Below, piece by piece: positions 3,643 to 23,880 of a DNA stretch of 39,837 nt; the first letter of the stretch is position 1; every line of letters begins with the position of its first letter. A program made the translations under genes and the position numbers. Location: positions 1 to 39,837 of the IMG/VR virus record IMGVR_UViG_3300042344_000807; one strand, written 5' to 3'. The notes beneath the pieces are model-generated. The model saw only the letters and a list, made by a program, of their open reading frames with translations, did not search any database and had not been told where the DNA came from. This stretch comes from a virus.

Positions 3643-3644
3643 CC

Positions 3645-4514: not shown

Positions 4515-5282
4515 CTAAGCCCTAGCCCCGTCACCCGTGCTCGGGGTGACTTCGGGGAGATTGACGGTCACGGACACGCGGGGACCTTGGGTGGTCTCCC
4601 CTTGTGACTTAGTGGCAGCGCGGCGGAGCCGCATCGTTTCCGCCTGACGGCGGGCCTGATGCGCCTTAGCTTGCGCGACCGTCCCGCACTTGAGCGGGAC
4701 CGTGACCCATTGTGTGGTCTCGACCTCGATTTCTCGCGACCGTACCTCACGGATTTTCGTATAGACGACCGCCCCTTGCGTGGCGTGCCCGTCTGCTATG
4801 GCGCGACCGCGCCCACGGTAGGCGTGCGCCTTCCCTTGCTCGACCATCGCACGGATGGTCTCAAAGGCGAAGCGTCGGGCGCGGCTCGTGAGGCGAAGAT
4901 CCTCACCATCGAACCCAAGGTCACTGCCCACCATGCGGCACGCAATGGCGCGTGCCAGCATCATGCCGCCCTGAAAGGCGGCCGCTTGGAGCCACGCCTC
5001 GACGTAGGCACGGCGGAGACGGTCGGGGAGCCGACCGCACTCCTCGTCCATCCGCGCCGCAATGGGCGCGGCGACGGTGACGAGCTCGCGCGTCTCGTGC
5101 TGCCAGCGGACTGACAGCGCGTCGAGCCTCCCCTCTAGCGCACGGGTGATCCGTGCGGCGATAGCAGACTTCGTGGGCTTCACCCGTTCGGGCCGTGCAA
5201 GCGTGTCCCGCATACGCCGCCACGCCTTGACGCTGCCGAATGCAGCGAAGAAGGCGCGGCGGTCCTGCGCGGACCACTGCAT
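4515..5282 (-). CDS. hypothetical protein, 255 aa
   Basis: It starts at the ATG ending at 5282, with AGGAGT seven bases upstream. The product is basic and mostly helical (MQWSAQDRRAFFAAF at the N-terminus). A long central helical part carries a GFDGEDLRLTSRARRFAFE segment, followed by a beta-rich C-terminal part ending in PRVSVTVNLPEV. No catalytic motif, zinc site or membrane segment is seen. The length and composition would suit a phage DNA- or RNA-binding protein, but that is a guess. Its stop codon abuts the densely structured RNA region 4083-4514, so the two may be one transcript. No leader repeat of the 865/3504 type precedes it. Confidence 0.75.
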   Translation of the reverse strand: MQWSAQDRRAFFAAFGSVKAWRRMRDTLARPERVKPTKSAIAARITRALEGRLDALSVRWQHETRELVTVAAPIAARMDEECGRLPDRLRRAYVEAWLQAAAFQGGMMLARAIACRMVGSDLGFDGEDLRLTSRARRFAFETIRAMVEQGKAHAYRGRGRAIADGHATQGAVVYTKIREVRSREIEVETTQWVTVPLKCGTVAQAKAHQARRQAETMRLRRAATKSQGETTQGPRVSVTVNLPEVTPSTGDGARA

Positions 5283-5367
5283 GGTAGACTCCTACTCCTG
5301 TGGGTGAGTGTGTTCGCGAGGGGCACGACCTATGGTCATGCCCATGGCGAAAACACGCACGCACGGC

Positions 5368-5400
5368 CTGCCCCCCCTTGCGGGGGGCACGAGGTGAGAG
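5368..5400. repeat. GC hairpin repeat, inverted copy A
   Basis: The reverse complement (CTCTCACCTCGTGCCCC, then a Gly-codon-like G run) matches the sequence at 5827-5858 in opposite orientation, so two inverted copies flank the gene at 5425-5697. A shorter relative (TCGTGCCCCC...GGGGGC) lies at 5709-5729. Confidence 0.6.
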
Positions 5401-5424
5401 AGAGGGGGGGGAGAAGGTGGGCGA

Positions 5425-5697
5425 TTAGCCCAAATATTCCTTCTCCTCGTTGGTCAACTCGAAGGTCGCCTTGTACGTGGCGATGGCGTTGTTGGCGAGG
5501 CAGTAACCGAAGAGCCCGCGGCGGGCCTTCTGGTAGGCGCGGGCCGCCTCACGGGCGGCGACCGACGTGTTCGTGCGGACCTGCTTGAGGCCGAGCAGGT
5601 CGATGCACATCGCCTCGAAGCGCACGAGGTCGAACCCCGTGGTGGCGGCGGCGGGCGTGACGTTGGCGGAGGTCTTGACGTTGGAAATCGTGGCCAT
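5425..5697 (-). CDS. small hypothetical protein, 90 aa
   Basis: The ATG at 5695-5697 has GGAG in front of it; the upstream part of the open frame overlaps hairpins and is discarded. The product has a Thr/Ala/Asn-rich, likely flexible N-terminus (MATISNVKTSANVTPAAA). A helical region with LVRFEAMCIDLLGLKQV and a compact Ala/Arg/Tyr helix follow, and the C-terminus is acidic and ends in EEKEYLG. No known family was recognised. It is flanked by inverted GC-hairpin repeats and sits between two structured non-coding blocks, so it may be a mobile or recently inserted cassette. Confidence 0.72.
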   Translation of the reverse strand: MATISNVKTSANVTPAAATTGFDLVRFEAMCIDLLGLKQVRTNTSVAAREAARAYQKARRGLFGYCLANNAIATYKATFELTNEEKEYLG

Positions 5698-5708
5698 GGT
5701 GGCTCCAT

Positions 5709-5729
5709 TCGTGCCCCCTCGCAGGGGGC
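5709..5729. repeat. GC hairpin repeat, short copy in 5' leader
   Basis: TCGTGCCCCC-TCGCA-GGGGGC lies just upstream of the ribosome site of the gene at 5425-5697. It belongs to the same hairpin family as 5368-5400 and 5829-5867. Confidence 0.5.
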
Positions 5730-5739
5730 TTCCAGGCAC

Positions 5740-6130
5740 TAGTGGGGGCAGGGTGGGCGTTGACGCTAGGTGGCACCATGCCACCGTGCATCGCGCCGCC
5801 CCCACGGTCTGAATGTAGACGGTCCCCTCTCACCTCGTGCCCCTTGCAAGGGGGGGCACATGGTGAGTCACGTTCAGCCTGTTACACCGTGCATCGCACA
5901 CACGGTAACCCTACCCCCTATCTAGGGTGCGTCGGGCCTAAGCTGCCAGCAGGGATTTAGTCTGCTGGTAATGCATCCGGCCATGCTCACGCTATGTGAG
6001 CCTAGCATTCGGTCACGGTCCTTACATCGGGGAGACACCCGTGTCAGTGTGCTACGTTGTCGCACACCTGATGTCTCACCCGCCGATGTCAAAACCTTGA
6101 CGTAGCGAGCCGGTTGAATTGTCAAAGATC
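5740..6130 (-). ncRNA. candidate structured RNA or long structured leader, about 390 nt
   Basis: No credible ORF is visible. On the minus strand the stems include GTGGGGGC...GCCCCCAC enclosing GGTGGCA-TGG-TGCCACC (5741-5805), GTTACCGTG...CACGGTGTAAC (about 5880-5907), CCAGCAG...CTGCTGG (about 5947-5970), GCTCAC...GTGAGC (about 5984-6003), and CATCGG...CCGATG enclosing GAGACA...TGTCTC (about 6025-6090). The 12-base ACCGTGCATCGC (plus strand) occurs twice. It lies upstream of the 90-aa gene, so it is either a separate RNA or its 5' leader. Confidence 0.42.
5829..5867. repeat. GC hairpin repeat, inverted copy B
   Basis: CTCACC...GGTGAG forms the outer arm and GTGCCCC...GGGGCAC the inner arm of a strong hairpin. 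This copy is inverted relative to 5368-5400 across the gene at 5425-5697. Confidence 0.6.
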
Positions 6131-6680
6131 CGCGGGTCCGTTTGCCCCGCCTCGTTTCTCCTTTCGTTGCGCCGTTGTGTGAACCCACTATGGACGCCCC
6201 GGGTTGCCGCGTAAACAACTTTTTGCACAATCGTGCAAGTACGCGAAATCACTACGCTTTTTTTTGCATCGTGCGCCGTTCGGAGGCCTACATCTGCGAT
6301 CCACTACAGTGCGCAACGCGCCCGCGTTGTACCTAGCGTGCCAAGTTTTCCCCCGATGCGCGTAGTGGTTTTTACTGATTGACTCGGCGGGTGCCCTAGT
6401 GTGTGAGGCGCGCCAGCCGTCAGGTCGGATGGCCGTACCCCAGACAATTATTCCAATTTTCTGACCGGCCCCCGCAATTATTTATTTTCTGTGGCCCCCA
6501 CCAATTTCCTGGCGGCCCTCGCATTTAATTCTGCTCGCCCCAGATAAAGGGTGGGGTACCCTCAGCCCCCTTCGCATCAGGCCTCGAAATAATTGGCCTC
6601 ATATTTTTTGGATTTTTCCCAGGCTCTTCTGGAATATCATTCCTAACTTTATCTTTTCTTGCAGGCTTACTTCTTTTTTC
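6131..6680. other. intergenic divergence region, no genes seen
   Basis: This spacer separates the leftward and rightward transcription units and holds no credible ORF. The left part is GC-rich with short palindromes (for example TTGCAC-AATC-GTGCAA at about 6223-6238) and an eight-T run near 6260. The right part, from about 6440, is clearly AT-richer than the rest of the window and carries the iteron-like repeats listed separately and T-rich tracts (6606-6620, 6670-6680). It is a likely regulatory or replication region. Confidence 0.5.
6445..6541. repeat. four degenerate iteron-like repeats
   Basis: The units begin at 6445, 6475, 6502 and 6522. Each starts with an AATT core (CAATT or CATTTAATT) and most continue through CTG into a GGCCC-type C run. 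The first two share CAATTATT, TTTTCTG and GGCCCCC. Spacing is about 20-30 bp. They may be binding sites for a replication initiator or repressor. Immediately downstream GGCCTC is repeated twice around AATAATT. Confidence 0.4.
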
Positions 6681-6709
6681 TTGCAACTGTACTTGTGTGG
6701 GGTTAGGGT
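6681..6709 (+). promoter_or_regulatory. promoter candidate for the rightward operon
   Basis: TTGCAA (6681-6686), a 17-bp spacer and TAGGGT (6704-6709). Transcription would start near 6716, about ten bases before the ATG at 6726, just ahead of the AGGAGGT ribosome site. The -35 is good and the -10 is weak. Confidence 0.45.
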
Positions 6710-6725
6710 GCGTTCAGGAGGTCAC

Positions 6726-6890
6726 ATGCCCGTCTACGAGATGAAGTGCGAAGCCTGCGGCCGGCAGGAAGAAGCGATTGCAAAGGTCAACGAGGTTGTT
6801 CTTTGTAAGGGTTGCAAGACCGAGATGAAGCGCATCCCTGTGAAGACCGGGTTCTCGTTGAAGGGGCGCTGGTTCAAGGAGGGCTACTGA
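6726..6890 (+). CDS. FmdB-like zinc ribbon protein, 54 aa
   Basis: It starts at ATG 6726 after an excellent AGGAGGT. The opening MPVYEMKCEACGRQEE is the hallmark of FmdB-type small zinc ribbons (MPxYEYxCxxCG). A second pair, CKGC, about 22 residues later completes a four-Cys zinc site. The length is usual for the family. In phages such proteins are common near early regulatory genes and are presumed DNA- or protein-binding; no reaction is known. It heads a coupled operon: its TGA overlaps the next ATG (TGATG). Confidence 0.85.
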   Translation: MPVYEMKCEACGRQEEAIAKVNEVVLCKGCKTEMKRIPVKTGFSLKGRWFKEGY

Positions 6891-12857: not shown

Positions 12858-13195
12858 TGAAGAGCTACCAGCCGACCTTCCCGTGGGCGGAGAACACGCA
12901 CGACTACAACCTCACCAAGCTCATCGAGACGCTTGGTCACACCGACACGGACATCGTCATCCGTCTTGAGGACGTCGAGGGCCTTCGTGATGCGCTCCAA
13001 GCCCTCGTCGGGCAGCCCACGCGGCAGAGCCTCCAAGCCGACATCGAGGACCTCCAGTCAGAGGTGAAGTACCTCGGTGAAGAGCTTGCCGCCGAGGAAC
13101 GCCAGCATCGGGAGTTCGAGGATGAAATCCTCGACCTGACGCGTAAGCTCGATGACGCGAACAAGAAGCTCGAGGAGCTTGAAGCGGACTTCTGA
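12857..13195 (+). CDS. coiled-coil protein, 112 aa
   Basis: ATG 12857 overlaps the upstream stop (TGATG), with AAGGAACA upstream. The N-terminus has a short globular part (TDTDIVIRLEDVEGLRDAL). From about residue 58 to the end there is an unbroken charged heptad helix (QADIEDLQSEVKYLGEEL, RKLDDANKKLEELEAD). It probably oligomerises. The function is unknown. Confidence 0.75.
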   Translation: MKSYQPTFPWAENTHDYNLTKLIETLGHTDTDIVIRLEDVEGLRDALQALVGQPTRQSLQADIEDLQSEVKYLGEELAAEERQHREFEDEILDLTRKLDDANKKLEELEADF

Positions 13196-13839
13196 TGGAC
13201 TGGACGGCAGACTCCGTCGTCGACTACTGGCGCAAGCAGCTTCACCTGTGCAGAGCTGAGCGCCGCGGTGGGTTCTGGTACGTCCAGCGGCCAAAGGCCA
13301 CGGTGCGCATCCAACTCGCCACTCTCAAAGCCGGCGGCCCTTCCCTGACGATGGTCGCAACCGCCAACAGGAACAACACCTGGGGCAACAGCACCCTGTC
13401 GACCACCACCTACTACAAATGGCTTGCCTTCTTGGGCAAACACCCGATTGTGCCGGACCTCATGATCAGACGAACCGTTGAAGAGCTTGAGGCCTCCGCT
13501 CGCTGGGTGACCTCGGGCGGGCCCATTGCCGAACCTGAACCTCTGCCGCGCGCCGAAGGCGAGCCGATTCCTGAGCTCCTCGTGGAGTGGCTTGAGGAGA
13601 AGATCGAGAACTCTGGCACCGTCATCTCGGATGTCCAGGCCCGGGCGGAGTTCGGCTTCAAGAAGTACGGGCAGTACCTCATGAGCGACGACGGCCGCGA
13701 CACCATCAACGATGCTCGGCAAGAGGCCATCGACCTGCTCAAGTACATGTTCAAGGCGCGGGTTCGCGGCGAAGACCTGACCGAGCTCAAGGACGTCCTC
13801 GCCGCCATCGTCACCCTCTACAAGGACACCAACCAATGA
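13195..13839 (+). CDS. protein with MazG-like C-terminal helical domain, 214 aa
   Basis: ATG 13195 overlaps the upstream stop. The N-terminal half (YWRKQLHLCRAERRGGFWYV) is unassigned. Residues from about 150 on carry FGFKKYGQYL, then DGRDTINDARQEAIDLLKYM. This matches the KYG...NGRDxxxDAxxEAxDLxxY signature of a common phage all-alpha NTP-pyrophosphohydrolase-like (MazG-type) domain. If active it would hydrolyse non-canonical or excess dNTPs to monophosphates, but the full EExxE set typical of MazG is not evident, so it may be a non-catalytic relative. Confidence 0.75.
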   Translation: MDWTADSVVDYWRKQLHLCRAERRGGFWYVQRPKATVRIQLATLKAGGPSLTMVATANRNNTWGNSTLSTTTYYKWLAFLGKHPIVPDLMIRRTVEELEASARWVTSGGPIAEPEPLPRAEGEPIPELLVEWLEEKIENSGTVISDVQARAEFGFKKYGQYLMSDDGRDTINDARQEAIDLLKYMFKARVRGEDLTELKDVLAAIVTLYKDTNQ

Positions 13840-14114
13840 GCGGGCTGACCGAACGCCAGGCCGAGATCCTTCGTTTCATGATCCAGTTCATCGTGAAGTA
13901 CCACACGCACGCCACGACCAACGACATCATGGAGGAGTTCAAGATGAACTCCCGAAGCGCAGCGAACGCCCACATCCAGGCGCTCATCAAGAAGGGTTAC
14001 TTGGAGTACGTCATCAAGGGGCCGGACAGCGAGCGCGGGTCTTGGAAGGTGGTCCGCGAGCCAGAGGGCAAGCGCATCCAGTTCGGGGTCTACGTCCAAG
14101 CTGACGTTAAGTAG
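13836..14114 (+). CDS. LexA-like winged-helix DNA-binding protein, 92 aa
   Basis: ATG 13836 overlaps the previous stop. SGLTERQAEILRFMIQFI, TTNDIMEEFKMNSRSAANAHI and QALIKKGYLEYV follow the N-terminal DNA-binding domain of LexA (helix-turn-helix plus wing), but no autoprotease domain is present. It is the last gene before the promoter and lysis-type cluster at 14135, so it is a plausible regulator of it. A similar wHTH is at the C-terminus of the protein encoded at 19984. Confidence 0.82.
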   Translation: MSGLTERQAEILRFMIQFIVKYHTHATTNDIMEEFKMNSRSAANAHIQALIKKGYLEYVIKGPDSERGSWKVVREPEGKRIQFGVYVQADVK

Positions 14115-14134
14115 TAAATATTTTCTAAAGCGAC

Positions 14135-14163
14135 TTGACTTGAGGGCTGGATAGCGTTAAAGA
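14135..14163 (+). promoter_or_regulatory. promoter candidate upstream of lysis-type cluster
   Basis: TTGACT (14135-14140), 17 bp and TAAAGA (14158-14163). The -10 and its flank (CGTTAAAGA) are identical to the candidate at 18494-18522. The predicted leader (about 14170-14259) has CCGGT-GGAGG-ACCGG, three AACTTG repeats and GCGGC-GAA-GCCGC hairpin segments before the start at 14260. Confidence 0.6.
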
Positions 14164-14210
14164 ACACCTCACGACAACGTAAGCCGGTGGAGGACCGGTG
14201 CTCAAGGCGA

Positions 14211-14227
14211 ACTTGAACTTGAACTTG
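14211..14227. repeat. short tandem repeat in leader
   Basis: AACTTG occurs three times in tandem (GAACTTGAACTTGAACTTG) in the 5' leader of the SleB-like gene. Confidence 0.7.
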
Positions 14228-14259
14228 CGGCGAAGCCGCATTTACCCGTGAGGTGGTTG

Positions 14260-14721
14260 ATGTTCTCCCTACTTCTTCTCGCCGCATTGGCTTCTCCGAA
14301 GCCCCTTGACCCGAGCGACCCTGAGTCGCTGGTGGCCAACATCATCTGTGGCGAAGCTGGGAATGACGATGCCCTGGGGATGCTCGTGGCGCACGTCATC
14401 GAGAATCGAATGGCCCTCTTGGACGGCACCCGCGAAGAGAAAATCGTTAAGGTCCTGATGGCGCCCAAGCAGTTCAACGGGCGCTGCCGCATCAAGGAGC
14501 CTGCCTACGTTCGCGTGCTCGCGCGGCAACTGGTCAACGGCGACATGAAGCAGGTCTGGAAGCCGGCATGGATGAATCAGCGAGTCCGGTGGTTCACCGA
14601 GGAAGCAACGGCCAGCAAGTGGCTGAAGAAAGTCGGCAAGAAACGACCGCCAAGCTGGCTGTCCAGCGTGAAGGTGTCCAAGCGTTTCAAGGGCGTTTAC
14701 TTTTTCGAGAAGAACCAATGA
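14260..14721 (+). CDS. SleB-like cell wall hydrolase with signal peptide (endolysin candidate), 153 aa
   Basis: ATG 14260 has GAGGTGG upstream and gives a clean signal-peptide-like start (MFSLLLLAALASP). An in-frame GTG at 14248 is the alternative. The mature part carries VANIICGEAGNDDALGMLVAHVIENRM, matching the SleB/hydrolase-2 fold (hIxxEAxGE...Ax.VVxNR) with its catalytic Glu. It should cleave peptidoglycan in the periplasm after Sec export. Its position next to small membrane proteins supports a lysis role. It could instead be a cell-wall remodelling enzyme. Its stop overlaps ATG 14718. Confidence 0.8.
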   Translation: MFSLLLLAALASPKPLDPSDPESLVANIICGEAGNDDALGMLVAHVIENRMALLDGTREEKIVKVLMAPKQFNGRCRIKEPAYVRVLARQLVNGDMKQVWKPAWMNQRVRWFTEEATASKWLKKVGKKRPPSWLSSVKVSKRFKGVYFFEKNQ

Positions 14722-15107
14722 CACTACTCAAGGACTTCATCAACTGGGCTATGCGGGTCTTTCGCAAGCCTACTCGCCTCGTCTCGTGGGAGCCGGGCAG
14801 CGACAACTCGTTTCGCGCTACTCCTGGTTTCATCGACAGGGATGGTATGGGCGGGTCGAAGCTGGGTGCCGAGATCATCAAGGCCCGACGCGAGATGCTC
14901 TCCGACCGGATCATGCAGACGACCTTCGAGATGCCGGTCGATCAGCGTCCGCACTTCTACAGCTACAAGGGCGGCTTGGAGTACCGCGCGACTGCGCTCC
15001 CGGCCGATAGGTCAACGCTCTGGACCGAAGGTGTGAAGGTCGACCCAGATTTCGAGAACAACCGAATCCGCGCTGGCATGCGCGATGACGAAAGGACCTC
15101 TCCATGA
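14718..15107 (+). CDS. hypothetical protein, 129 aa
   Basis: ATG 14718 overlaps the upstream stop. The N-terminus is amphipathic and basic (TLLKDFINWAMRVFRKPTRL). The rest is soluble, with the segment GFIDRDGMGGSKLGAEIIKARR. No family is recognised. It lies between the hydrolase and the two-TM protein, with ATGA overlaps on both sides, so it is probably part of the lysis-type cluster. Confidence 0.7.
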   Translation: MTLLKDFINWAMRVFRKPTRLVSWEPGSDNSFRATPGFIDRDGMGGSKLGAEIIKARREMLSDRIMQTTFEMPVDQRPHFYSYKGGLEYRATALPADRSTLWTEGVKVDPDFENNRIRAGMRDDERTSP

Positions 15108-15283
15108 AGTACCTCGAAGGCGCCGCGATCATGCTCATCAGCAATCTGCTGGCCACCCACATCCACGGCCTTGGTGTCGGGATGCTCATCGCCGGGTTGT
15201 CCGCGGTCACGACGACCATGGTCCTCGTGTTCGCCGCCCACTTCGTCACCAACCTCCTGTTCCCGAAGCGCGCCGAGGGCTAA
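15104..15283 (+). CDS. two-TM holin-like protein, 59 aa
   Basis: ATG 15104 overlaps the previous stop, and the TAA overlaps the next ATG (TAATG). The product has two hydrophobic helices (about residues 6-24, AAIMLISNLLATHIHGLGV, and 27-50, AGLSAVTTTMVLVFAAHFV) with a basic C-terminal tail (PKRAEG). Size, topology and position two genes after the SleB-like hydrolase fit a class II holin that would open the inner membrane. No sequence family match is claimed. Confidence 0.7.
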   Translation: MKYLEGAAIMLISNLLATHIHGLGVGMLIAGLSAVTTTMVLVFAAHFVTNLLFPKRAEG

Positions 15284-16086
15284 TGGCCAGGGAGCGGGTA
15301 CGGAAGTCGCACGAGATTGAGCTCGCCAGGAAACTGGGGCAGGCGCTGGACAAGTACGTCCAAGCCTGTGGCGGCGAACCGAAGCGGAAGACGCCGTGGA
15401 CTCGTCACTGCCTGTGGCAGGTCTACTTGGGGATGCGGAACATCTTCCACACCGACAGTTGGATGGCCGCCAAGTTCACGAGCCCCGGGTACGTCGCAGA
15501 GATGCGGCGGCTTGAGCTCTTCCTTTACAGCTTGGGGTACGTCCCCAAGCACGCCTCGCGCGACATTGGCATCCACCGCCGCACCATCCACGGCTGGCTC
15601 TCGTTTCGGGAAGCAATCACCCCCGAGGACGCAGTGAAGCTGCGTCAGCTCGGGTTCGAGTTCGACCCTTGGTTCTTGGACGCCTTGGCCAACAAGCACG
15701 AGTACCAGCGCGGCATTCGTGAGCGGGGCCGCGAGGCGTTCTTGGAGCACCACGTCATCCCGAGGATTATGGACAAGCAGACCCACGACACGGCTACCTA
15801 CTTGGCGCGGCAGACGGCCAATGCTTGGCGAGAGCCCGAGCTGCTACAGGTTTTCGCGGACATCGTCATGCAGTGCCATGGCGCGGCGGAGCACGGGCAT
15901 TGGGGAGTTGAGGTTGAGCTCGCCTTCCTTGAGCCGCCACAGGTCATGGCCTTGGCCTACTGGCTCGGGGCTGAGCAAGGCTTTGGCACCGCCCTGCCTG
16001 AGCGGAATCTTCTACGAGTATTTTGGTCGAACCTTGAGCCGAAGTCGTGGGGCAGGATTGAGGTGGACGATGTCAGCGCCGAGTAG
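15283..16086 (+). CDS. hypothetical protein with HTH-like segment, 267 aa
   Basis: ATG 15283 overlaps the holin-like stop. The product is basic and helical. Around residues 92-130 there is KHASRDIGIHRRTIHGWLSF, then ITPEDAVKLRQLGFEFDPW, which resembles a helix-turn-helix followed by a second small domain. The rest contains ELLQVFADIVMQCHG and an aromatic C-terminal region. It may be a DNA-binding regulator. No known family was identified. Confidence 0.75.
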   Translation: MARERVRKSHEIELARKLGQALDKYVQACGGEPKRKTPWTRHCLWQVYLGMRNIFHTDSWMAAKFTSPGYVAEMRRLELFLYSLGYVPKHASRDIGIHRRTIHGWLSFREAITPEDAVKLRQLGFEFDPWFLDALANKHEYQRGIRERGREAFLEHHVIPRIMDKQTHDTATYLARQTANAWREPELLQVFADIVMQCHGAAEHGHWGVEVELAFLEPPQVMALAYWLGAEQGFGTALPERNLLRVFWSNLEPKSWGRIEVDDVSAE

Positions 16087-16102
16087 TTGGAGGCTTCACC
16101 AG

Positions 16103-16348
16103 ATGGCCTTCACCGTCGGGATGCCCGTGGTCTGCGTTGACGCCGTGACCGGTACTGTCCGGTGGACGGGTGTCGTCAGCAAACGCTCAGAGGCGAACGG
16201 CGCACTCGAGGTTCTTCCTGACGGCAAGGCCCGCTACAACCGCAACGGGAAAGAACTACGATACAAGTTCTCCGCCTACGGTATGCCCTTAGGGAACTTC
16301 GTTGGCTGCGCCATGCAGCTTAAGCCGCAGATACCCGAGGAACAGTAG
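16103..16348 (+). CDS. small beta-rich hypothetical protein, 81 aa
   Basis: ATG 16103 follows TTGGAGG by nine bases; the open frame extends upstream over the previous gene and is not used. MAFTVGMPVVCVDAVTGTVR and RWTGVVSKRSEANGALEV look like a small SH3- or KOW-like beta barrel. The C-terminal part is Gly/Lys-rich. The function is unknown. Confidence 0.65.
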   Translation: MAFTVGMPVVCVDAVTGTVRWTGVVSKRSEANGALEVLPDGKARYNRNGKELRYKFSAYGMPLGNFVGCAMQLKPQIPEEQ

Positions 16349-16368
16349 GACACGCCAACCGCTTGCGC

Positions 16369-16374
16369 TATCCT
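16369..16374 (+). promoter_or_regulatory. -10-like hexamer directly upstream of an ATG
   Basis: TATCCT ends seven bases before ATG 16382, which has no Shine-Dalgarno sequence. This suggests a leaderless start. No convincing -35 is present. Confidence 0.35.
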
Positions 16375-16381
16375 GCGCGGC

Positions 16382-16831
16382 ATGCCTATGCCGAAGAAAA
16401 CACCTTCAGGTCCTGCCTCGGACATCGTGAAGATCGATGTTCGTCTGGACATGCTGGTTCGAGACGTGGCCAAGCTCGACTCGGTCCTTCAGCAGCACAT
16501 CGCGACGATGCAGGCACGGGACGATTCGATCATCCGCGGTGTCGAGCGCGTTCGAGGCGACCTTGAGCGGTTCGACCAGCAGCGCATGCTTGAGGTCCTC
16601 CAGAGCGCGCACACGACGCATCAGGAGAAGCTCTTCGAGCTCATCAGCAAGCACTTGGCGGCCCAAGAGGAGACCAAGAAGCGCAAGGATGAGCGCCTCG
16701 CCATCGTCGCAAAGGCGGTGTGGGAGAAGGGTGGCTCTGCACTGATCCTTGGCCTCGTGCTGCTCTTCCTCGGCATCCTTCAGCAATTGACCGGGATTCA
16801 GACGATCCCGGGTCTGGGGCTAAAGCCGTGA
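16382..16831 (+). CDS. coiled-coil protein with C-terminal TM helix, 149 aa
   Basis: ATG 16382 has no clear ribosome site but sits seven bases after TATCCT. Residues about 14-105 form long charged helices (IVKIDVRLDMLVRDVAKLDS, RVRGDLERFDQQRMLEVL). Residues about 119-137 are one hydrophobic TM helix (SALILGLVLLFLGILQQL). N-terminal coiled coil plus C-terminal anchor recalls XhlA-type phage lysis proteins, but it is longer, and it could be a membrane-tethered partner of the adjacent two-component system. Its stop overlaps the GTG of the response regulator. Confidence 0.75.
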   Translation: MPMPKKTPSGPASDIVKIDVRLDMLVRDVAKLDSVLQQHIATMQARDDSIIRGVERVRGDLERFDQQRMLEVLQSAHTTHQEKLFELISKHLAAQEETKKRKDERLAIVAKAVWEKGGSALILGLVLLFLGILQQLTGIQTIPGLGLKP

Positions 16832-17253
16832 AGCGAATCCTCTTGGTGGAGGACGACGACGCAGACGCAATGCTCGCGGAGCGGGCAATCTCGCGCGTAC
16901 TTCAACCGACTGGCATGGCCTACGAGGTCATTCGAGCTCGAGACGGCATCGTAGCCTGCGACAAGCTCTTCGATGGCGAGAAGCTCAGGCAGAGCTTTGA
17001 CTTGGTTCTTCTCGACCTCCATCTGCCCAGGATGTCTGGCATCGACTGCCTCAAAGTGATCCGCGCGAATCACAGCGGGTGGAAGTTGCCCGTGGTGATC
17101 ATGACCACGTCCAATACCCAGACTGACATCGAGAAGGCCTACCTGAACCGAACTAACGGCTACGTCGAGAAACCTCTTCGTCCCGTGGACTTCAACCAGG
17201 TCATCCAGAAGACCTTCAGCTTCTGGCTTGACCTCAATCAGGTACCACAATGA
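16828..17253 (+). CDS. REC-only response regulator, 141 aa
   Basis: GTG 16828 overlaps the upstream stop as GTGA. KRILLVEDDDADAML gives the acidic pocket (Asp9/Asp10). LVLLDLHLPRMSG carries the phosphoacceptor Asp63. VVIMTTSNT supplies the conserved Thr, and GYVEKPL the conserved Lys115. All residues needed for phosphorylation are present, with no output domain, as in Rcp1- or CheY-like single-domain regulators. The DLHLPRMSG...MTTSN...AYxxxxNGYVEKPL pattern is most like the Rcp1 class. It would be phosphorylated by the kinase encoded immediately downstream (ATGA overlap) and signal by protein-protein contact. It is probably part of the lysis-adjacent operon. Confidence 0.93.
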   Translation: MKRILLVEDDDADAMLAERAISRVLQPTGMAYEVIRARDGIVACDKLFDGEKLRQSFDLVLLDLHLPRMSGIDCLKVIRANHSGWKLPVVIMTTSNTQTDIEKAYLNRTNGYVEKPLRPVDFNQVIQKTFSFWLDLNQVPQ

Positions 17254-18482
17254 GGTCCATGCTAAGCCGGTTGCGGCATCGAATCTGCTGTGGGCCGCGG
17301 GACGTTGCAGAAGTTGTTGCTGTGGTCGCCGTCAATGTTCTGGTTGGCGTCATCATCAACAGGTTCATCGTGACCTTCACCCCTGAGGTCATACTCCTGT
17401 CCTCATTCTGGGCGGCAACAGTCGCGCTGCTCATCACGACTCTGCAGATGAAGACCGCGGCGATGCGGGTGCAGCACCAGTTGATGTACTGGTCCAAGGC
17501 GACAAACGACCTGATGGCCATTGCGCCCATCTGCTTTCATCGCCACGAGATCGTGTTCAGTTGGGTCAACGAGGCTTGGACTCGGCAGACAGGTTGGGAT
17601 CAGGAAGAGCTGCTCCAGATGTCGGTTGAGGACATCATTGAACCCGAGGACCTCGAGAGCTTGGCATGGATTGACGCCGTCACGGGTTTGAACTGCGGGA
17701 CAGGCAACCGCGGCAGTATCCGTTGCAAAGACGGGCGCGGGCGAATCTTCGAGTGGCGGTATGTGAAGAACGGCGAGTTCATTCTCGTCTGCGGTACCGA
17801 CATCACCGACGCCATGCAGATGGCGGCCGAGCTCTCCAGGTTCGCTTCAATCACCGCGCACCAATTGAAGGGGCCGGCGAGAACAGCTTCTGCACTGGCG
17901 ACTTCTGTCCTTGAGGACTACGGGCACACGGTCCCAGAGCCGGCTAGGGATCGGCTGAAGCTCATCAGCGAGCGTTCCCAGTCCTTAGCTGAGACTGTGG
18001 TCGCCATCAGCATGCTGACGGGGCTTCGCAACAAGAACGTCGAGGCCTACCCAGTCAACATCATGCCCCTCATCTTGGGGGCGGCGAAGAAGGCTAAGGA
18101 GGTGCGGACTGGAATGGTCTACCTCCCAAGCCACGACAAGCTCATGGCGATGGGGGACACGGTCCTACTAGGCGAGGTCTTCTACAACCTCATCGAGAAT
18201 GGGCTGAAGTTCAACCAAGCCAAGGCGCCGTGCGTGTCGGTCGAGGTTGAACCAGACGACCTGATGGTCAGCATCAAGTTCGTCGATAACGGTGTCGGCA
18301 TCGCACCTGAATACCGCGCCCAGTTGTTCGCCATGTTCTACCGCGCCCACAGTGAGTTCCCAGGAACTGGGGTTGGGCTCGCGCTCGCGCAGGCAATCCT
18401 GTCCAAATTGGACGGCTCCATCCGGTACATCCCGTTGCCGATGGGCTCAGCCTTCGTGGTCTCGTTGAGGCCCAGTATTTAG
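17250..18482 (+). CDS. membrane PAS-domain sensor histidine kinase, 410 aa
   Basis: ATG 17250 overlaps the response regulator stop. Two TM helices (about 20-40 and 46-66) anchor it with almost no periplasmic loop. Residues about 85-195 form a PAS domain (IVFSWVNEAWTRQTGW...GTDITDAMQ). The dimerisation helix has FASITAHQLKGPART, with phospho-acceptor His204 but HQLKGP instead of the usual HELRTP. The N-box is NLIENGLKF, G1 is DNGVGI, the F-box is FAMFYRAHS, and G2 is GTGVGLALAQAIL. All catalytic boxes look intact. The short loop suggests it senses an intramembrane or cytoplasmic cue through PAS. With the upstream regulator it forms a complete phage-borne two-component system. Confidence 0.93.
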   Translation: MRSMLSRLRHRICCGPRDVAEVVAVVAVNVLVGVIINRFIVTFTPEVILLSSFWAATVALLITTLQMKTAAMRVQHQLMYWSKATNDLMAIAPICFHRHEIVFSWVNEAWTRQTGWDQEELLQMSVEDIIEPEDLESLAWIDAVTGLNCGTGNRGSIRCKDGRGRIFEWRYVKNGEFILVCGTDITDAMQMAAELSRFASITAHQLKGPARTASALATSVLEDYGHTVPEPARDRLKLISERSQSLAETVVAISMLTGLRNKNVEAYPVNIMPLILGAAKKAKEVRTGMVYLPSHDKLMAMGDTVLLGEVFYNLIENGLKFNQAKAPCVSVEVEPDDLMVSIKFVDNGVGIAPEYRAQLFAMFYRAHSEFPGTGVGLALAQAILSKLDGSIRYIPLPMGSAFVVSLRPSI

Positions 18483-18493
18483 TAAGATACTAC

Positions 18494-18522
18494 TTGAACC
18501 TCTCGCCGCATTACGTTAAAGA
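18494..18522 (+). promoter_or_regulatory. promoter candidate upstream of exonuclease gene
   Basis: TTGAAC (18494-18499), 17 bp and TAAAGA (18517-18522), with CGTTAAAGA identical to the promoter at 14135. The predicted start site, near 18529, excludes an upstream in-frame ATG at 18522 and supports ATG 18540. Confidence 0.6.
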
Positions 18523-18539
18523 TGCCAGCGGAGGTGTTC

Positions 18540-19334
18540 ATGGAGTTCAGAGACTCTTGCATCCTCGTGGTCGACACGGAGACCACGGGCAGTGACCCGA
18601 AGCAGGCGCGAATCGTCGAGATTGGCGGCGTCCTCTACGACCCGAAGGTTGGTCGCAAGGCGCTTCAGCGGTACATCAACCCGGGCTGCCCAATCCCACC
18701 CGAGGCGACTGCTGTACATAGAATCACTGACGCCATCGTCGCTGATTCGCCTGCATTCGCGGAGGTGGCCGAGGGTATCGCCGAGCGGTTCCGCTCGGCT
18801 GACGTGATTCTTGGGTACAACCTGCTCGACTACGACTTGCCCTTGATTGAGGCGGAGTTCGCTCGAGCTGGTATGCCCATCGTCATCGACCGCTCCAAGG
18901 TCATCGACCTGATCATCTTCGCTCGTTGGCACTTGCGGTCGATGCGCAGCCGGAAGCTCGGCGACGTCTGTGCGCACTACGAGATCGACCTCACCAACGC
19001 GCACAGCGCGAAGGCCGACGCGCTGGCGACGCATGACCTGCTCTACCACATGCTCGACGACGGTTTCCTTCCTTCGGACGTGCAGGAGGCCGTCGAGGTG
19101 CAGGCGAAGGCGGCTGAGCTCATCAAGACCGAGTCGGAGGCCTGGTCGTACTGGCTCTACCGCGACCGCAAGTTCCCCAGCGTCATTCGGGTAGGCGCAG
19201 GCAAGCACGTCGGGCGTCCCCTGAACGCGGTCCCGAAGGACTACATCAAGTTCATCCTTGAGAAGATGGAAGGGCTCCATCCAGGTGCCGAGGCGGCGTT
19301 TCGCGCTGAGCTTCGTGAGCGAGGTGCGAAGTGA
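18540..19334 (+). CDS. DnaQ-like DEDDh 3'-5' exonuclease, 264 aa
   Basis: ATG 18540 follows GGAGGTG and lies about 11 bases after the predicted transcription start. ExoI is VVDTETTGSD (Asp12, Glu14). ExoII is ILGYNLLDYDLPLI, and ExoIII is AHSAKADALATHDLL with the His-x4-Asp of the DEDDh class. This predicts a metal-dependent 3'-5' exonuclease acting on DNA or RNA ends, like DNA polymerase III epsilon or phage exonucleases. The C-terminal 90 residues (SEAWSYWLYRDRKFP...KHVGRPLNAVPKDYI) are an extra domain similar to that seen in exonuclease X-type proteins. Its stop overlaps the methyltransferase GTG. Confidence 0.9.
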   Translation: MEFRDSCILVVDTETTGSDPKQARIVEIGGVLYDPKVGRKALQRYINPGCPIPPEATAVHRITDAIVADSPAFAEVAEGIAERFRSADVILGYNLLDYDLPLIEAEFARAGMPIVIDRSKVIDLIIFARWHLRSMRSRKLGDVCAHYEIDLTNAHSAKADALATHDLLYHMLDDGFLPSDVQEAVEVQAKAAELIKTESEAWSYWLYRDRKFPSVIRVGAGKHVGRPLNAVPKDYIKFILEKMEGLHPGAEAAFRAELRERGAK

Positions 19335-19984
19335 GCCGGAAGAACACGCCAAGTGGCGGCACCGACTTCTACCCCACGCCTGCGTGGTGTGTGGACATCA
19401 TCATTCCCGAGGTCATCAAGGAGATTGGTCGAACCGTGATCGCGCGCAAGTCTGCGCGGCAGGAACTCGGCTGCATCTTCGAGCCCGGGGCTGGGAATGG
19501 CGTGATCTTGGAGCGTGTGGCTGATGCGCTCCGCCCCTTCGGCTACGACCACTTCTTGGGCAACGAGATCGACGAGTCGTTCGTGTCTGACTGCGAGATG
19601 CGCGGGATGCAGATGGAGGTCGGCGACTACTTGGGGATGCCGAAGGCGTCCCCGGTCATCGACCTGGTGGTGATGAACCCACCCTATGGTGGCGCCATGA
19701 ACACCGCGCAGAGGTTCATCGACAAGGCCATTCGCGAAGTCTGCGACGGCGGCGCGGTGTTCGTCCTGCTTCGAAGCAGTTGGTTGCTAGACGGCGCGAA
19801 GCGGCACGGACGGACAAAGTGGTTGAAGAATGATGTCGGGATGCCCACGAAAATCTTCGGGCTCACCCGCCGCCCTTCGTTCACCGGAAACAACAAGACG
19901 GATGGCGCTACCTACTGCTGGATGATGTGGCGCAAGGGGAACTTCCCCAAGACCATCGAGTACCAAATCCTGGAGGTTGAGTGA
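19331..19984 (+). CDS. N6-adenine DNA methyltransferase, 217 aa
   Basis: GTG 19331 overlaps the upstream stop as GTGA. FYPTPAWCVDIIIPEV and the SAM-binding FEPGAGNGVILE (motif I) are followed by VVMNPPYGGAM (motif IV, NPPY at residue 116) and a FTGN segment. This is the order of small phage Dam-like or Class I N6-adenine methyltransferases. It would methylate adenines in phage DNA, probably as anti-restriction, and together with the C5 enzyme at 7547 gives two modification activities without a nuclease. No target-recognition specificity can be read. Confidence 0.9.
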   Translation: MSRKNTPSGGTDFYPTPAWCVDIIIPEVIKEIGRTVIARKSARQELGCIFEPGAGNGVILERVADALRPFGYDHFLGNEIDESFVSDCEMRGMQMEVGDYLGMPKASPVIDLVVMNPPYGGAMNTAQRFIDKAIREVCDGGAVFVLLRSSWLLDGAKRHGRTKWLKNDVGMPTKIFGLTRRPSFTGNNKTDGATYCWMMWRKGNFPKTIEYQILEVE

Positions 19985-20400
19985 TGACGCCCGGGTTCTT
20001 TCTTCAACGCCTGGATGAACGACCTTCCGAGATCGTTCAGCAGTTCATGCCGCACCTTCCCTACCCTCTGCTCCAGAAGGCAGAGAGCCTGCGCTTGGCG
20101 CTCCTTGAGGTCGAGGGCGAGATCAAGACGCCCGAGCCAGAGGCTCAACTGGACCTGTTCCACATGGGCGACAAGAACCGCAAGATGCTTGAGTTCATCG
20201 TTCGCAACATCCAAGAGGCTGGGCGACATCCGAGCTACGAGCAGATTCGCATCCATCTCGGATGGAAGAGCCTGTCGAGCGTGCAGTACGCCCTCACCCA
20301 GCTCATCGAGTCTGGGCACATCGAGAAGATGGGTCGCACGTACAAGGTCATCAGGGACTCCAGCAACCGCCGCGTCACCTTCAACGTGGGGGGCGCATGA
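19984..20400 (+). CDS. LexA-like winged-helix protein, 138 aa
   Basis: ATG 19984 overlaps the preceding stop (TGATG), with GGAGG upstream. The N-terminal half (FFLQRLDERPSEIVQQFM) is helical. The C-terminal half, MLEFIVRNIQEAGRHPSYEQ then IRIHLGWKSLSSVQYALTQLI and SGHIEKMGRTYKV, is a winged helix of the LexA N-domain type. It is a likely transcriptional regulator. No autocleavage domain is present. Confidence 0.8.
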   Translation: MTPGFFLQRLDERPSEIVQQFMPHLPYPLLQKAESLRLALLEVEGEIKTPEPEAQLDLFHMGDKNRKMLEFIVRNIQEAGRHPSYEQIRIHLGWKSLSSVQYALTQLIESGHIEKMGRTYKVIRDSSNRRVTFNVGGA

Positions 20401-20720
20401 GGTTCGAGCGCATCTGGATTCCGATGCTCAACAAGAGCAACACCGTCACGCAGGGCGAGGTCTTCAAGTTCTACCAGGCAGGTCCATGGGCCGTGACCTT
20501 GCCCGCCAACTTGGGTCGCGGCTTCGTGGTCACGCATCTTCCCTCGGGCGCGTTCGCGCTCCCGTTCGGTAAGGGCGGCGACCTGGACTACGAAGTTGCG
20601 CGGAAGGTCGTGGATGACCTCGCGGCAAAGGTCTCGCACTCCAAGGCCCTGTCGTCGAAGGACCTGTCGGTCGTTCGTTCGATTGTCGAGGACCTCAATG
20701 AAATGAGGTGGGACGTATGA
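20397..20720 (+). CDS. hypothetical protein, 107 aa
   Basis: ATG 20397 overlaps the upstream stop. Beta-rich N-terminal half (FERIWIPMLNKSNTVTQGEV, KFYQAGPWAVTLP), then a helical Lys/Asp-rich end (LSSKDLSVVRSIVEDLNEM). No family was recognised. It is part of the coupled run leading to the terminase. Confidence 0.7.
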   Translation: MRFERIWIPMLNKSNTVTQGEVFKFYQAGPWAVTLPANLGRGFVVTHLPSGAFALPFGKGGDLDYEVARKVVDDLAAKVSHSKALSSKDLSVVRSIVEDLNEMRWDV

Positions 20721-20929
20721 TTGTGGTCAACAAAATCGGCTTCGCCTCAAAGGCAGACGCGCTCGGGCTGGCGAAGGCAATCTGGAAGCTGCAGGAGGAA
20801 GAGGAGACCCACGTCTACTGCGAGGTCTGCTTCGACGACAACTCGGTGAACTTGATTGGGCGCCCCGAGGACATCAAGGCCATCGTTGGTGGTCTGCCTC
20901 CGTTGGAGAGCGACCCCCGCGAGTGTTGA
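20717..20929 (+). CDS. small hypothetical protein, 70 aa
   Basis: ATG 20717 overlaps the previous stop. A small alpha/beta domain (IGFASKADALGLAKAIWKLQ, THVYCEVCFDDNSVNLIG), acidic overall. Its function is unknown. An inverted repeat and promoter follow it. Confidence 0.68.
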   Translation: MIVVNKIGFASKADALGLAKAIWKLQEEEETHVYCEVCFDDNSVNLIGRPEDIKAIVGGLPPLESDPREC

Positions 20930-20967
20930 TTTTGGCATAAGTAAGTTTTACCCTTACCTTATGCCCG
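20926..20967 (+). promoter_or_regulatory. promoter with overlapping palindrome and leaderless start
   Basis: TTGATT (20926-20931), 17 bp and TACCCT (20949-20954) end six bases before ATG 20961, so the transcript may start at the A of the ATG. The inverted repeat GGCATAAGTAAG / CTTACCTTATGCC (20934-20965, one extra C) spans the -10 and the start codon and is a good operator candidate. Confidence 0.5.
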
Positions 20968-21266
20968 AAGAAACCTTGGTCCTCCGCGGAAGAGTCCGCA
21001 ACACGATCCTCAGCTTCGTCGTGAAGCAGGGTGTCACCTACGCCAACACGGTCGCCACCCTCTATGACGACCTCTGCACAGGTGCCGAAACGACCCTAAT
21101 CTCGAACGGTGACGCGAGGCTGGTCTGGGCACGAGTCCATCTTCATCACCTGAAGAAGATGGGCTTGGTGACCTCTGCCGAACGAAAGCGACCGAACGGC
21201 AGCATTGGCCGCGGGAGATACGTCGAGTGGCGGGCGACTGCACTCGGTGAATCCGTGGTGCGATGA
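20961..21266 (+). CDS. winged-helix-like hypothetical protein, 101 aa
   Basis: ATG 20961 has no ribosome site and appears leaderless. The product (LRGRVRNTILSFVVKQGVTY, LVWARVHLHHLKKMGLVTSA, RGRYVEWRATALG) has a helical core and a basic wing-like strand, reminiscent of a small winged helix. It is the first gene of the packaging module. It may be autoregulatory through the palindrome over its start. Confidence 0.7.
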   Translation: MPEETLVLRGRVRNTILSFVVKQGVTYANTVATLYDDLCTGAETTLISNGDARLVWARVHLHHLKKMGLVTSAERKRPNGSIGRGRYVEWRATALGESVVR

Positions 21267-21796
21267 TGAAGGAAGACCTTCCGCCGCCAATCGACCTCCC
21301 AGAGCCCGCGCCTGTTGTTGTTCTTCAGCCCGCGGGTCGCGGCAGCCAGGTTAAGGCGCTCCAAGAGATCAACGCGATGCTGGAGTCGAGGCGCACAAGC
21401 GTCCGGCCGGCGAGCGTGTCGGAGGACGTCTGGTCGCTGGTCGAGGACCTGCGGAGCAACGGCTCCCTCTTCGACCTCTCGGTGGAGCTCGCGCGGCTTG
21501 AGCGTGAGCAACTCCGCATCGACGCGCTGCTTGAGGACAACGAGATCCTCAAGAGTGAGGCGGTGCGGCTGAAGGTGCAGATCGCCAAGGTCTCTGCCGA
21601 GGTGAAGGAGAAGGCCGTCGTGACCACGCTGAAGATGCGTGACGTCATCACGATGGACATGCTCGGCAACCTCATGGACTCCGTCTATGCCGTGCTTCGC
21701 CGGCACATTTCGGACCCACATCAGCTTCAAGGTATTGGCGTCGACCTGGCCCTGGCGCTTCGTGCGACCCTGGCTGCAATGAAACGTGACGCATGA
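21263..21796 (+). CDS. candidate terminase small subunit, 177 aa
   Basis: ATG 21263 overlaps the upstream stop (ATGA). It lies immediately before the large terminase (ATGA overlap at 21793), where small subunits usually sit. The N-terminus is Pro-rich, followed by SVSEDVWSLVEDLRSNGSLF and a long helical core (ELARLEREQLRIDALLEDN, RLKVQIAKVSAEVKEKAVV) able to oligomerise. No sequence family match is visible, so the assignment rests on position, size and helical composition. Confidence 0.6.
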   Translation: MMKEDLPPPIDLPEPAPVVVLQPAGRGSQVKALQEINAMLESRRTSVRPASVSEDVWSLVEDLRSNGSLFDLSVELARLEREQLRIDALLEDNEILKSEAVRLKVQIAKVSAEVKEKAVVTTLKMRDVITMDMLGNLMDSVYAVLRRHISDPHQLQGIGVDLALALRATLAAMKRDA

Positions 21797-23880
21797 ACTT
21801 CAGCTTCGAAGCCCCCAAATCCGCGCCTGCCGATCTTGGAGAATGCGGGCACACCAAAGGGCTTGTCGGCAGCTTCTACGTCAAGTCCGGTAACGCCACT
21901 TCATCCAAGTTCGACAGCATCGTTTCAGCCTTCTCCCAGAAGTTCTTGGGCGAAGGTTCTGTCCCTCTGGATCGGCCAATCCTGCCGCCTGAAGAGTGGA
22001 TTGAGAACCAGTACTACTCGGGCCCGTTCGCGGGTGACTTCCTGTGGCCCGAGAAGAAAAAGATGTTCATTTCCACCGCCCAAGGCGACGTGACTGAGGT
22101 CATCCTCACGGGCGCCATCGGTGTCGGCAAAACACAAATCCTAGTACTGCTGGCGATGTACGACTACTACCGGTTGTCGTGCTTCTCGAGCCCGCAGAAC
22201 TTCCTGAATCTGCCGAGCACTTCGCCTCTCGTCATCGTGATGGTCTCGATGAAGAAGGAGAAGGCGAAGGCCAAGCTGTTTGAGCCGCTGCTCACGGCAA
22301 TCGACGCAACGCCGTACTTCCAGTACGAGTTCCCACGAAATCAGGAGCTCTCCTCGAAGATCGCGTCGAAGACGAAGAACATCATCATTCGTCCTGACGT
22401 CACCAGCGAGTCGGCCATCCACTCCGAAGACGTGCTCGGGTTGTACGCCACCGAGTGCAACTTCTACGCAGTCGTCGAGGAGTCCGCGAAGAAGCGAGGC
22501 GAGACGCTCGACGTTGCCGAGGACCTGGTCGAGAACTGCTTCCGCCGTATGGAGTCGCGCTTCATGCGGAACAACACGCTGCAGCTTTGCCGCGTGGTGC
22601 TCGACTCGTCTCGGCAGTACCCGGACGACTTCGTTGAGCGGCGAGAGCGAACCGCGCTGGCAGGGGATGCTGCCTACCCGACGGTCGTCTTCTCGATGTC
22701 GCAGTGGGAAGCGAAGAAGGGCGTCAAGGACAACGCGGGAAACCTGATCTTCTCTGGCCGCACTTTTCCAGTGGAAGTGGGCTCAGGGAACAGGGCGTCG
22801 AGAATCTTGGCGGCGGATGAGGTCGAGCACGCGACTGGTCGAGTGGTCTGGTGCGCCGAGGAGATGCGAGCGTCCTTCCTCAAGGACCTCGATGGCTCAT
22901 TGCGCGACTTGGCCGGAGTCTCGGTCGAAGGCCTGCGCCCCCTGATTCCTCAGCGTGAGAACTTCGTCCGTTGTTTGCGACTTGAGGTTGACGGCTACGC
23001 GGACTACCAATGCCGCCACCCGTTCTCCTCGCAGACCACCACCTTGTCCGACTCGGTGGAGTTCTACCTGAACATGCTGGTCGACCCCGTGACCAAGCGG
23101 CCGCGGGTGAACCCCAACATGCTTCGGGCAGTTCACGCCGACCCTGGCGTTACGTCTGACGCCTTCGGTTTGGCGATGGGGCACGTCTCGAATTTGGTGA
23201 CGGTCAACAGACTCACCGAGGGCGAGACAACGCGTTCCTGCGGCGAATGCTTTGGCGCGAAGGTCTGCAGTTGTCCCCGATGCTTGGGCACTGGAAAGCG
23301 GCGAGTTGGCAGGACTGAGGTCCGCTGCGCCTCTTGCCGCGGCCAGAAGACCGTCGTCTGCCCTGTCTGCAACGGGACCGGCATGTACGGCACGCCCATG
23401 GACCGACCTCGGGTCTACATGGATCTTGTCCTTCAGGTGCTTCCTCCCAAGAGCGGGCGAATCCAGTTCGACAACATCGAGGCCGTCCTCAACAAGATGC
23501 GGGCGAACGGGTTCATGATCGGCTGCGTGACGGCTGACGGTCACCAGTCCGAGCAGTTCCTGCAGCACCAACTTTCAAGGGCGGGGACGGTGATCGCGGA
23601 GCACCTCTCGGTCGACAAGACCAAGGACCCCTACTACTGCTTCCGTGATGCCGTGATGGACATCGCGGCGGACGGCAAGCGACGGTTCTCCATCTACGAG
23701 TACGAGCCTCTGCTTCAGGAAATCTTCCGACTCGAGGATCGCCGCGACAAGATTGACCATCCTCACAACGGGTCAAAGGACGCAGCGGACGCTGTGGCTG
23801 GTGTGGTATTCAACTGCCACCGTTTCCCGTTCCTGTTGGAGCCGTGGGACAGCGGCGATATGCTGGTGCGAACTTTTTGA
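21793..23880 (+). CDS. terminase large subunit with inserted DnaJ-like zinc domain, 695 aa
   Basis: ATG 21793 overlaps the preceding stop. The N-terminal ATPase has Walker A GAIGVGKTQI (Lys113) and a Walker B-like FYAVVEE (about 225-230). The C-terminal RNase H-like nuclease has AVHADPGVTSDAFGLAMG (Asp450), GCVTADGHQSEQF (Asp582) and KDAADAV (Asp663). It translocates and cuts phage DNA during packaging. Between the first and second nuclease motifs, residues 483-530, lie four CxxC units followed by G-x-G (C483/C486, C494/C497, C512/C515, C523/C526), as in the DnaJ zinc domain. This suggests two zinc ions. It is longer than typical phage terminases because of this insertion. Confidence 0.93.
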   Translation: MNFSFEAPKSAPADLGECGHTKGLVGSFYVKSGNATSSKFDSIVSAFSQKFLGEGSVPLDRPILPPEEWIENQYYSGPFAGDFLWPEKKKMFISTAQGDVTEVILTGAIGVGKTQILVLLAMYDYYRLSCFSSPQNFLNLPSTSPLVIVMVSMKKEKAKAKLFEPLLTAIDATPYFQYEFPRNQELSSKIASKTKNIIIRPDVTSESAIHSEDVLGLYATECNFYAVVEESAKKRGETLDVAEDLVENCFRRMESRFMRNNTLQLCRVVLDSSRQYPDDFVERRERTALAGDAAYPTVVFSMSQWEAKKGVKDNAGNLIFSGRTFPVEVGSGNRASRILAADEVEHATGRVVWCAEEMRASFLKDLDGSLRDLAGVSVEGLRPLIPQRENFVRCLRLEVDGYADYQCRHPFSSQTTTLSDSVEFYLNMLVDPVTKRPRVNPNMLRAVHADPGVTSDAFGLAMGHVSNLVTVNRLTEGETTRSCGECFGAKVCSCPRCLGTGKRRVGRTEVRCASCRGQKTVVCPVCNGTGMYGTPMDRPRVYMDLVLQVLPPKSGRIQFDNIEAVLNKMRANGFMIGCVTADGHQSEQFLQHQLSRAGTVIAEHLSVDKTKDPYYCFRDAVMDIAADGKRRFSIYEYEPLLQEIFRLEDRRDKIDHPHNGSKDAADAVAGVVFNCHRFPFLLEPWDSGDMLVRTF

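Follow-up and report, generated by a model that had tools for sequence, protein, structure and literature searches.

Bacteriophytochrome/Rcp1-type two-component pairs, which we take to include Cph1-Rcp1 and DrBphP-DrRR, offer the nearest comparison for the locus described here. These systems resemble our locus in using a single-domain response regulator (RR) with a C-terminal arm, and they share an HDLxEPLR-type H-box with most of the other phage kinases that we aligned. However, the histidine kinase (HK) of our locus has no chromophore domain among its Pfam matches and carries a PAS sensor with two transmembrane (TM) segments. Moreover, the genes are arranged as RR and then HK, are phage-borne, and are joined by a gene for a coiled-coil TM protein (CC-TM).

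Phage-borne signaling genes have been reported previously, and the following comparisons apply to the portions of the cited papers that were covered. The C. difficile phage phiCDHM1 carries AgrD, AgrB and AgrC, and thus has a phage-borne histidine kinase as does our locus, but this is a quorum-sensing kinase for which the authors found no response regulator (PMC3901668). A histidine kinase is also present in pelagiphages, where it resides with curli (T8SS) genes in a conserved cluster; this kinase is curli-linked, and the text covered describes no HK-RR pair (PMC9599517). Some soil phages carry phoR (PMC10987575), and a review of jumbo phages mentions a divergent receiver domain that is never found with kinases (PMC7824862).

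The Microcoleus phage My-WqHQDG (OR578706.1) encodes an HK, an Rcp1-like RR (31-33% identity) and a coiled-coil protein with a single C-terminal TM segment, as does our locus. It differs by having an extra receiver and an HK-then-RR order, and its host, judging from the phage name, is cyanobacterial. The genes of this cluster are annotated only as hypothetical or as receiver domain protein.

Gene neighborhood of the trio

The stretch of DNA analyzed (the window) is an IMG/VR virus record of 39,837 bases, in which the CC-TM, RR and HK genes span positions 16382-18482. This trio forms the end of a run of packed or overlapping genes that starts with a gene for an endolysin-like hydrolase at 14248 (Table 1). 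The gene overlaps named in the original prediction are real: CC-TM and RR share a GTGA at 16828, and RR and HK share an ATGA at 17250.

Table 1. Genes of the run that ends with the trio, and selected genes downstream.
Feature	Coordinates	Strand	Basis
Endolysin-like cell-wall hydrolase (Hydrolase_2/SleB-like)	14248..14721	+	PF07486 E 4.6e-4; phrog_938 endolysin 1.9e-5
129-aa gene, same overlapping run	14718..15107	+	No matches (Pfam, PHROG)
59-aa holin-like protein, two hydrophobic stretches	15104..15283	+	Hydropathy
267-aa protein, weak Terminase_5-like match	15283..16086	+	PF06056 E 0.0019, below cut-off
81-aa gene of no assigned family	16103..16348	+	ORF
CC-TM, coiled-coil protein with one C-terminal TM, proposed switch output at membrane	16382..16831	+	Hydropathy, composition
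RR, single-domain Rcp1-like response regulator, C-terminal arm	16828..17253	+	Pfam, PDB, alignment, dN/dS
HK, histidine kinase with two TM, PAS, transmitter	17250..18482	+	Pfam, PDB, alignment, dN/dS
DnaQ-type exonuclease, next gene downstream of HK	18522..19334	+	PF00929 2.7e-26
Terminase large subunit (TerL), used for phage placement	21793..23880	+	tblastn against annotated phage terminases

The PF07486 score of the hydrolase, 21.2 bits, lies below the curated cut-off of 27 bits. For the 59-aa holin-like protein, the weaker hydrophobic stretch scores 1.47, and searches of Pfam and PHROG gave no family match. A scan with Rfam returned nothing at gathering scores. Within positions 13000-22000 no sigma-70-like promoter was found, and five terminator-like sites are present, one of them on the + strand (15652), a number not above that of shuffled sequence.

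Several other features of the window were observed. The product of positions 19981-20400 has a LexA-type DNA-binding domain (PF01726 6.4e-7), with no peptidase family among its matches. Residues ~480-536 of TerL form a cysteine-rich CxxCxGxG-type stretch (BSD2_CRD E 0.0016, below cut-off), an unusual-looking insert for a terminase whose cysteines are also present in two related contigs (L029 and L006). Positions 30349-34518 encode a collagen-repeat protein of the tail type, 1389 aa long, whose many tandem repeats align to a sister contig only piecewise. The left arm (1-6800) reaches a GC content of 73% and matches a sister contig (L013) in patches at 74-95%; this arm therefore probably represents rapidly varying DNA of the phage itself rather than flanking host sequence. 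A sister contig (L015/L016) extends ~13 kb beyond the right end of the window, and by eye this extension appears to carry tail sheath, tape-measure and baseplate genes. Given this tail-like extension, the window represents part of a larger genome, which probably encodes a contractile tail.

Kinase, regulator and membrane protein

The regulator is a protein of 141 amino acids with a GTG start codon, and it matches Pfam Response_reg with an E-value of 9.7e-16. It retains E8/D9/D10, D63, T93 and K115 and, as expected of the Rcp1-like class, combines the Asp/Thr/Lys set with a C-terminal arm and the absence of an output domain. Its best PDB match is 6xvu, presumably the Deinococcus bacteriophytochrome regulator, followed by 8avv (a bacteriophytochrome-regulator chain), with Rcp1 (1jlk, 1i3c) and RcpA (1k68) within the first seven. 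These matches bear out the earlier description of the regulator as Rcp1-like.

The kinase is 410 amino acids long, with hydrophobic segments that start at residues 23 and 47. Its membership in the histidine kinase family, as first proposed, is confirmed by profile matches to HATPase_c (5.4e-18) and PAS (4.3e-5). Pfam HisKA gave no match to this protein at E<=0.01, and kinases of known structure, such as 3dge, which we take to be HK853, align with residues 197-395 and so cover the phosphoacceptor helix. H204, N313/N317, D346-G348-G350, F360/F363 and G372-G374-G376 are all present and align with the corresponding boxes of 10 other phage kinases. The protein therefore has the phosphoacceptor His and the N, G1, F and G2 boxes of a histidine kinase transmitter. 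On the basis of the residue check, the Pfam matches and this alignment, the phage does carry a complete HK-RR pair with the originally named residues intact. An unusual sensor class had also been suggested. This is only partly right: the HQLKGP box of HK is indeed divergent, but it is a variant of the HDLxEPLR-type box that most of the other phage kinases in our alignment have.

Hydropathy places a single TM segment of CC-TM at residues ~121-139. The upstream stretch is charged and poor in Pro and Gly and, judged by this composition, is a predicted coiled coil. XhlA-type phage lysis proteins likewise place a single C-terminal TM segment after a coiled coil, and the window protein shares this topology. 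However, it matches no Pfam family at E<=1, and therefore we do not claim an identity as XhlA or holin. A weak PHROG match (0.007) leads to a family of unknown function. Among 10 CC-TM proteins, two are weakly matched by phrog_1193 ‘hemolysin’, those of loci L044 (3.5e-4) and L069 (0.009), and weak ‘holin’ PHROG matches also occur among the CC-TM proteins of these two loci.

Retention and recurrence of the trio

A terminase profile search identified two sister contigs, a third close contig that is cut off, a diverged relative (L029/L164, 96.7 kb) and a second cut-off contig resembling it. The original prediction had named relatives with an absent or degenerate pair as evidence against it, and the outcome was the opposite: all three clear relatives that span the locus retain the pair and indeed the entire trio, and the other two of the five contigs end before the locus. 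A sixth, very distant terminase match (25%) has no trio in the 14.8 kb examined of its 75 kb.

The two sisters share ~97-98% DNA identity with the window over the shared region. Comparison of the window with each of them yields dN/dS values of 0.057 and 0.055 for RR and of 0.19 and 0.11 for HK, and thus both genes are under purifying selection. The values for CC-TM (0.64 and 0.24) reflect weak constraint and are based on few changes.

In the diverged relative, TerL and portal are 56% and 45% identical to those of the window. We compared 25 window genes located upstream of 21263 with the full 96.7 kb of this contig. Five have a match there, and three of these five are the trio, with identities of 26% for CC-TM (E 1e-4), 38% for RR and 33% for HK. 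The order of the trio is conserved and it lies ~2 kb upstream of TerL. The other two matching genes are those at 20262 (a 45-residue part, E 4e-4) and at 8448 (38%, at a distance). Neither the hydrolase, the holin-like gene, the exonuclease nor the methyltransferase of the window has a match across these 96.7 kb; the upstream hydrolase of the relative is instead SLT-like (E 0.0015, below cut-off), and its kinase has no stretch that aligns to PAS. Because both the sister contigs and the diverged relative retain these genes, we conclude that the trio is not a product of chance.

To compare viral and cellular loci, an RR profile was used to collect 57 viral loci, to which the Microcoleus phage and the window were added. 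This collection reduces to 25 non-redundant viral loci with an adjacent kinase, in which the set of the window is counted once (as L027); for loci outside the restricted subset given below, viral status is taken from the IMG/VR classification. A genome scan supplied 80 cellular loci, 76 with a small receiver, of which 24 are non-redundant with a detected adjacent kinase; the detector consisted of two phage kinases (phmmer), and some cellular kinases may be missed. INPHARED gave 38 records that match HK (30 listed) and 12 that match RR, most of which, to judge from their names, look like unnamed fragments or like host DNA within phage assemblies; these were left out, and only the Microcoleus phage was used. 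As phage markers, Terminase_6N was too narrow (4 of 30 records) and phrog_2 was dropped because it has matches in 11 of 14 control genomes; phrog_9 matches were also set aside.

An abutting CC-TM gene, in some cases as a fusion to a receiver, is present at 17 of the 25 viral HK-RR loci and at 0 of the 24 cellular ones (Fisher p 2.2e-7), as scored by a filter that was fixed after the viral loci had been inspected. By eye, L066 is an eighteenth viral locus with CC-TM. Among ORFs of 85-320 aa that lie elsewhere in these loci, the filter is passed by 6 of 1738 in the viral set and by 9 of 2197 in the cellular set. When the viral set is restricted to annotated phage records and to contigs on which genes for virion or lysis proteins were seen, the counts are 10/15 (hand-entered, with L066 by eye) versus 0/24 (p 4.7e-6). 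A looser earlier test, with redundant loci and no requirement for abutment, gave 27/53 viral and 3/66 cellular loci. Eight of the 25 viral loci fail the strict filter, including L054, L064 and L070, which have clear capsid and portal genes. As a check on this filter, a small extra set was assembled with a kinase profile, wherein 11 new contigs include five with adjacent HK and RR genes. The strict CC-TM topology is seen in one of these five (L180, a receiver fusion), and two further loci have a coiled-coil gene whose single TM segment is N-terminal, such that either topology occurs in 3/5. With this either-topology criterion, which was suggested by the extra set itself, the first set yields 18/25 viral loci (L070 joins) and 0/24 cellular loci.

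Four arrangements are evident. The order CC-TM, RR, HK occurs in the window and its sisters, L029 and L053; HK, RR, second receiver, CC-TM in L026, L039, L044, L045, L066, L069, L071 and L076; HK, RR, second kinase, CC-TM in L048; and a receiver-CC-TM fusion followed by HK and RR in L034, L040, L049, L059, L063 and L074. In L039, L044, L045, L058, L066, L069, L071 and L076, the second receiver that separates RR from CC-TM has a C-terminal part that is long and helical. For L045, this protein is predicted to comprise a receiver and long helices (mean pLDDT 72). It is possible that the second receiver serves as a relay that links RR to CC-TM.

Thus HK, an Rcp1-like RR and a membrane coiled coil constitute a recurrent phage module, which the window and its sisters carry in full. 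The original view of the unit as an HK-RR pair was right in that the pair is complete and under selection, but the actual unit is a trio that includes CC-TM. Likewise, a full HK-RR pair is uncommon in phages, as had been stated, but it recurs at the 25 non-redundant viral loci.

A Mantel test shows that distances among HK and among RR sequences covary, with r 0.64 in viral loci (n=25) and r 0.71 in cellular loci (n=19 of 24); in neither case did any of 5000 permutations reach the observed value. This covariation shows co-inheritance of HK and RR that is not specific to phages. In a tree of the HK transmitter plus RR from 44 loci, the window set (L027) and L029 form a pair with 100/100 support on a long stem. 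The presence of CC-TM requires five label changes on this tree, but only one of these is imposed by well-supported branches. Many branches of the tree are open, and RR similarity was the basis for choosing the cellular rows, which makes the tree weak on deep origin.

Proposed switch and alternative explanations

Endolysin or endolysin-like genes lie near the module in the window, in L029 (the SLT-like gene mentioned above) and in L048 (phrog_181 6.9e-25), and the three genes match different families. No further case was seen in a scan of 61 of the 133 listed neighbors, which covered the best 25 of 96 PHROG and best 25 of 29 Pfam families; the L048 endolysin is one of the 61 neighbors but does not appear among these families, and the number of such modules is therefore at least three. 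The module resides among virion genes in L045, L071, L048 and L053. The endolysin neighbors, the weak hemolysin and holin PHROG matches and the position among virion genes lead us to view lysis as the likely membrane event, and the output of the trio is probably lysis-related. Arguing against lysis are the lack of a Pfam match for the window CC-TM and the existence of HK-RR phages that lack a strict CC-TM (L054, L064 and L070).

We tentatively favor, as an explanation that falls somewhat short of probable, a phage-dedicated two-component switch with a membrane coiled-coil output that gates a late event, most likely lysis. The kinase would read a membrane or cytoplasmic cue via its PAS domain and the short hairpin of its two TM segments, autophosphorylate at H204, and presumably pass the phosphate to D63 of RR. 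Since RR has no DNA-binding or output domain, it must act by protein contact. Its likeliest partner would be CC-TM, which is encoded just before RR and retained with it. Phosphorylation would alter the state of CC-TM in the inner membrane, and the altered protein may then gate a late membrane event such as lysis. We read the trio as a path in which the kinase would signal through the regulator to the coiled-coil protein at the membrane, because CC-TM is retained with RR and is fused to a receiver in other phages. The gene overlaps, the purifying selection, the recurrence of the module and the persistence of the trio although 20 of the 25 upstream genes are unmatched in the diverged relative are consistent with such a switch. 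Points against it are the eight viral loci that fail the strict filter, the three cellular loci that pass the looser test, the single strict case among the five extra loci and the weak constraint on CC-TM. In addition, HK has its own TM segments, and thus membrane placement needs no CC-TM. A broader version of this proposal, in which tailed phages (some with contigs >250 kb) share a widespread and unrecognized class of switches in which a relay acts, through its receiver, on a coiled-coil effector in the membrane and so times membrane opening or lysis to a cue, strikes us as possible but doubtful.

Other explanations place the function elsewhere. HK and RR might feed into host networks (kinases, chemotaxis, second messengers), with CC-TM as a bystander or scaffold and the trio kept for a better host state. 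A single-domain Rcp1-like regulator would suit this role, and seven of eight fetched plasmid relatives of RR adjoin a kinase-like gene, several of them with further receivers (the eighth is without annotation). In addition, action on host regulators has been proposed for published phage kinases, in the portions of the papers covered, as with AgrC in phiCDHM1 (PMC3901668) and with phoR (PMC10987575). However, CC-TM still accompanies RR and HK in the diverged relative, is associated with none of the 24 cellular loci, and is fused to a receiver in several phages, and on this evidence we judge such host rewiring to be unlikely.

Alternatively, HK could sense an envelope disturbance caused by incoming phages or crowding, whereupon CC-TM would keep a second phage from injecting or would postpone lysis, following a T4 rI/rIII-like logic. 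Both the membrane-located kinase and the single-pass coiled-coil output would serve this purpose, and tail-fiber or tail-spike genes that adjoin some modules (L045 and L048) would fit another membrane role such as this one too. Yet no known exclusion or lysis-inhibition family was matched by the window CC-TM in Pfam or by the CC-TM proteins among the best 25 of 31 families, and we consider this possibility improbable. The trio might also be ordinary cargo, a recently captured host pair with a coiled-coil gene adjacent by chance. Rcp1-like regulators occur widely in bacteria: RR matches 712 plasmid records, and an RR relative is encoded in at least 514 of at least 593 matched genome stretches. 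Against this stand the purifying selection, the recurrence of CC-TM, the long-stemmed pair that L027 and L029 form in the tree, and the best cellular RR identity of ~43% among the matches listed. With no close cellular pair among those matches and with the long stem of the window pair in the tree, recent host capture was rejected as the main reading, and the cargo explanation appears highly improbable.

The preferred switch is notable for its setting, in that two-component signaling is found here in an unexpected place and with an unexpected partner, and in that the unit exceeds, in size and in generality, what the original prediction saw. Even if the output were not lysis, no description of an HK-RR-membrane coiled-coil module was found in the titles and abstracts searched in open-license PubMed Central. 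The timing of phage lysis is usually attributed to the accumulation of holin alone. Because similar trios are found in very different phages and not beside the sampled bacterial pairs, our findings suggest that some phages use two-component signaling to control a host-membrane event, possibly lysis. The receiver-membrane fusions and the occurrence in unrelated phages speak for this idea, which is testable with a unit of three genes. If true, a relay that ends at a membrane coiled coil would let phages sense the cell and act directly at its membrane.
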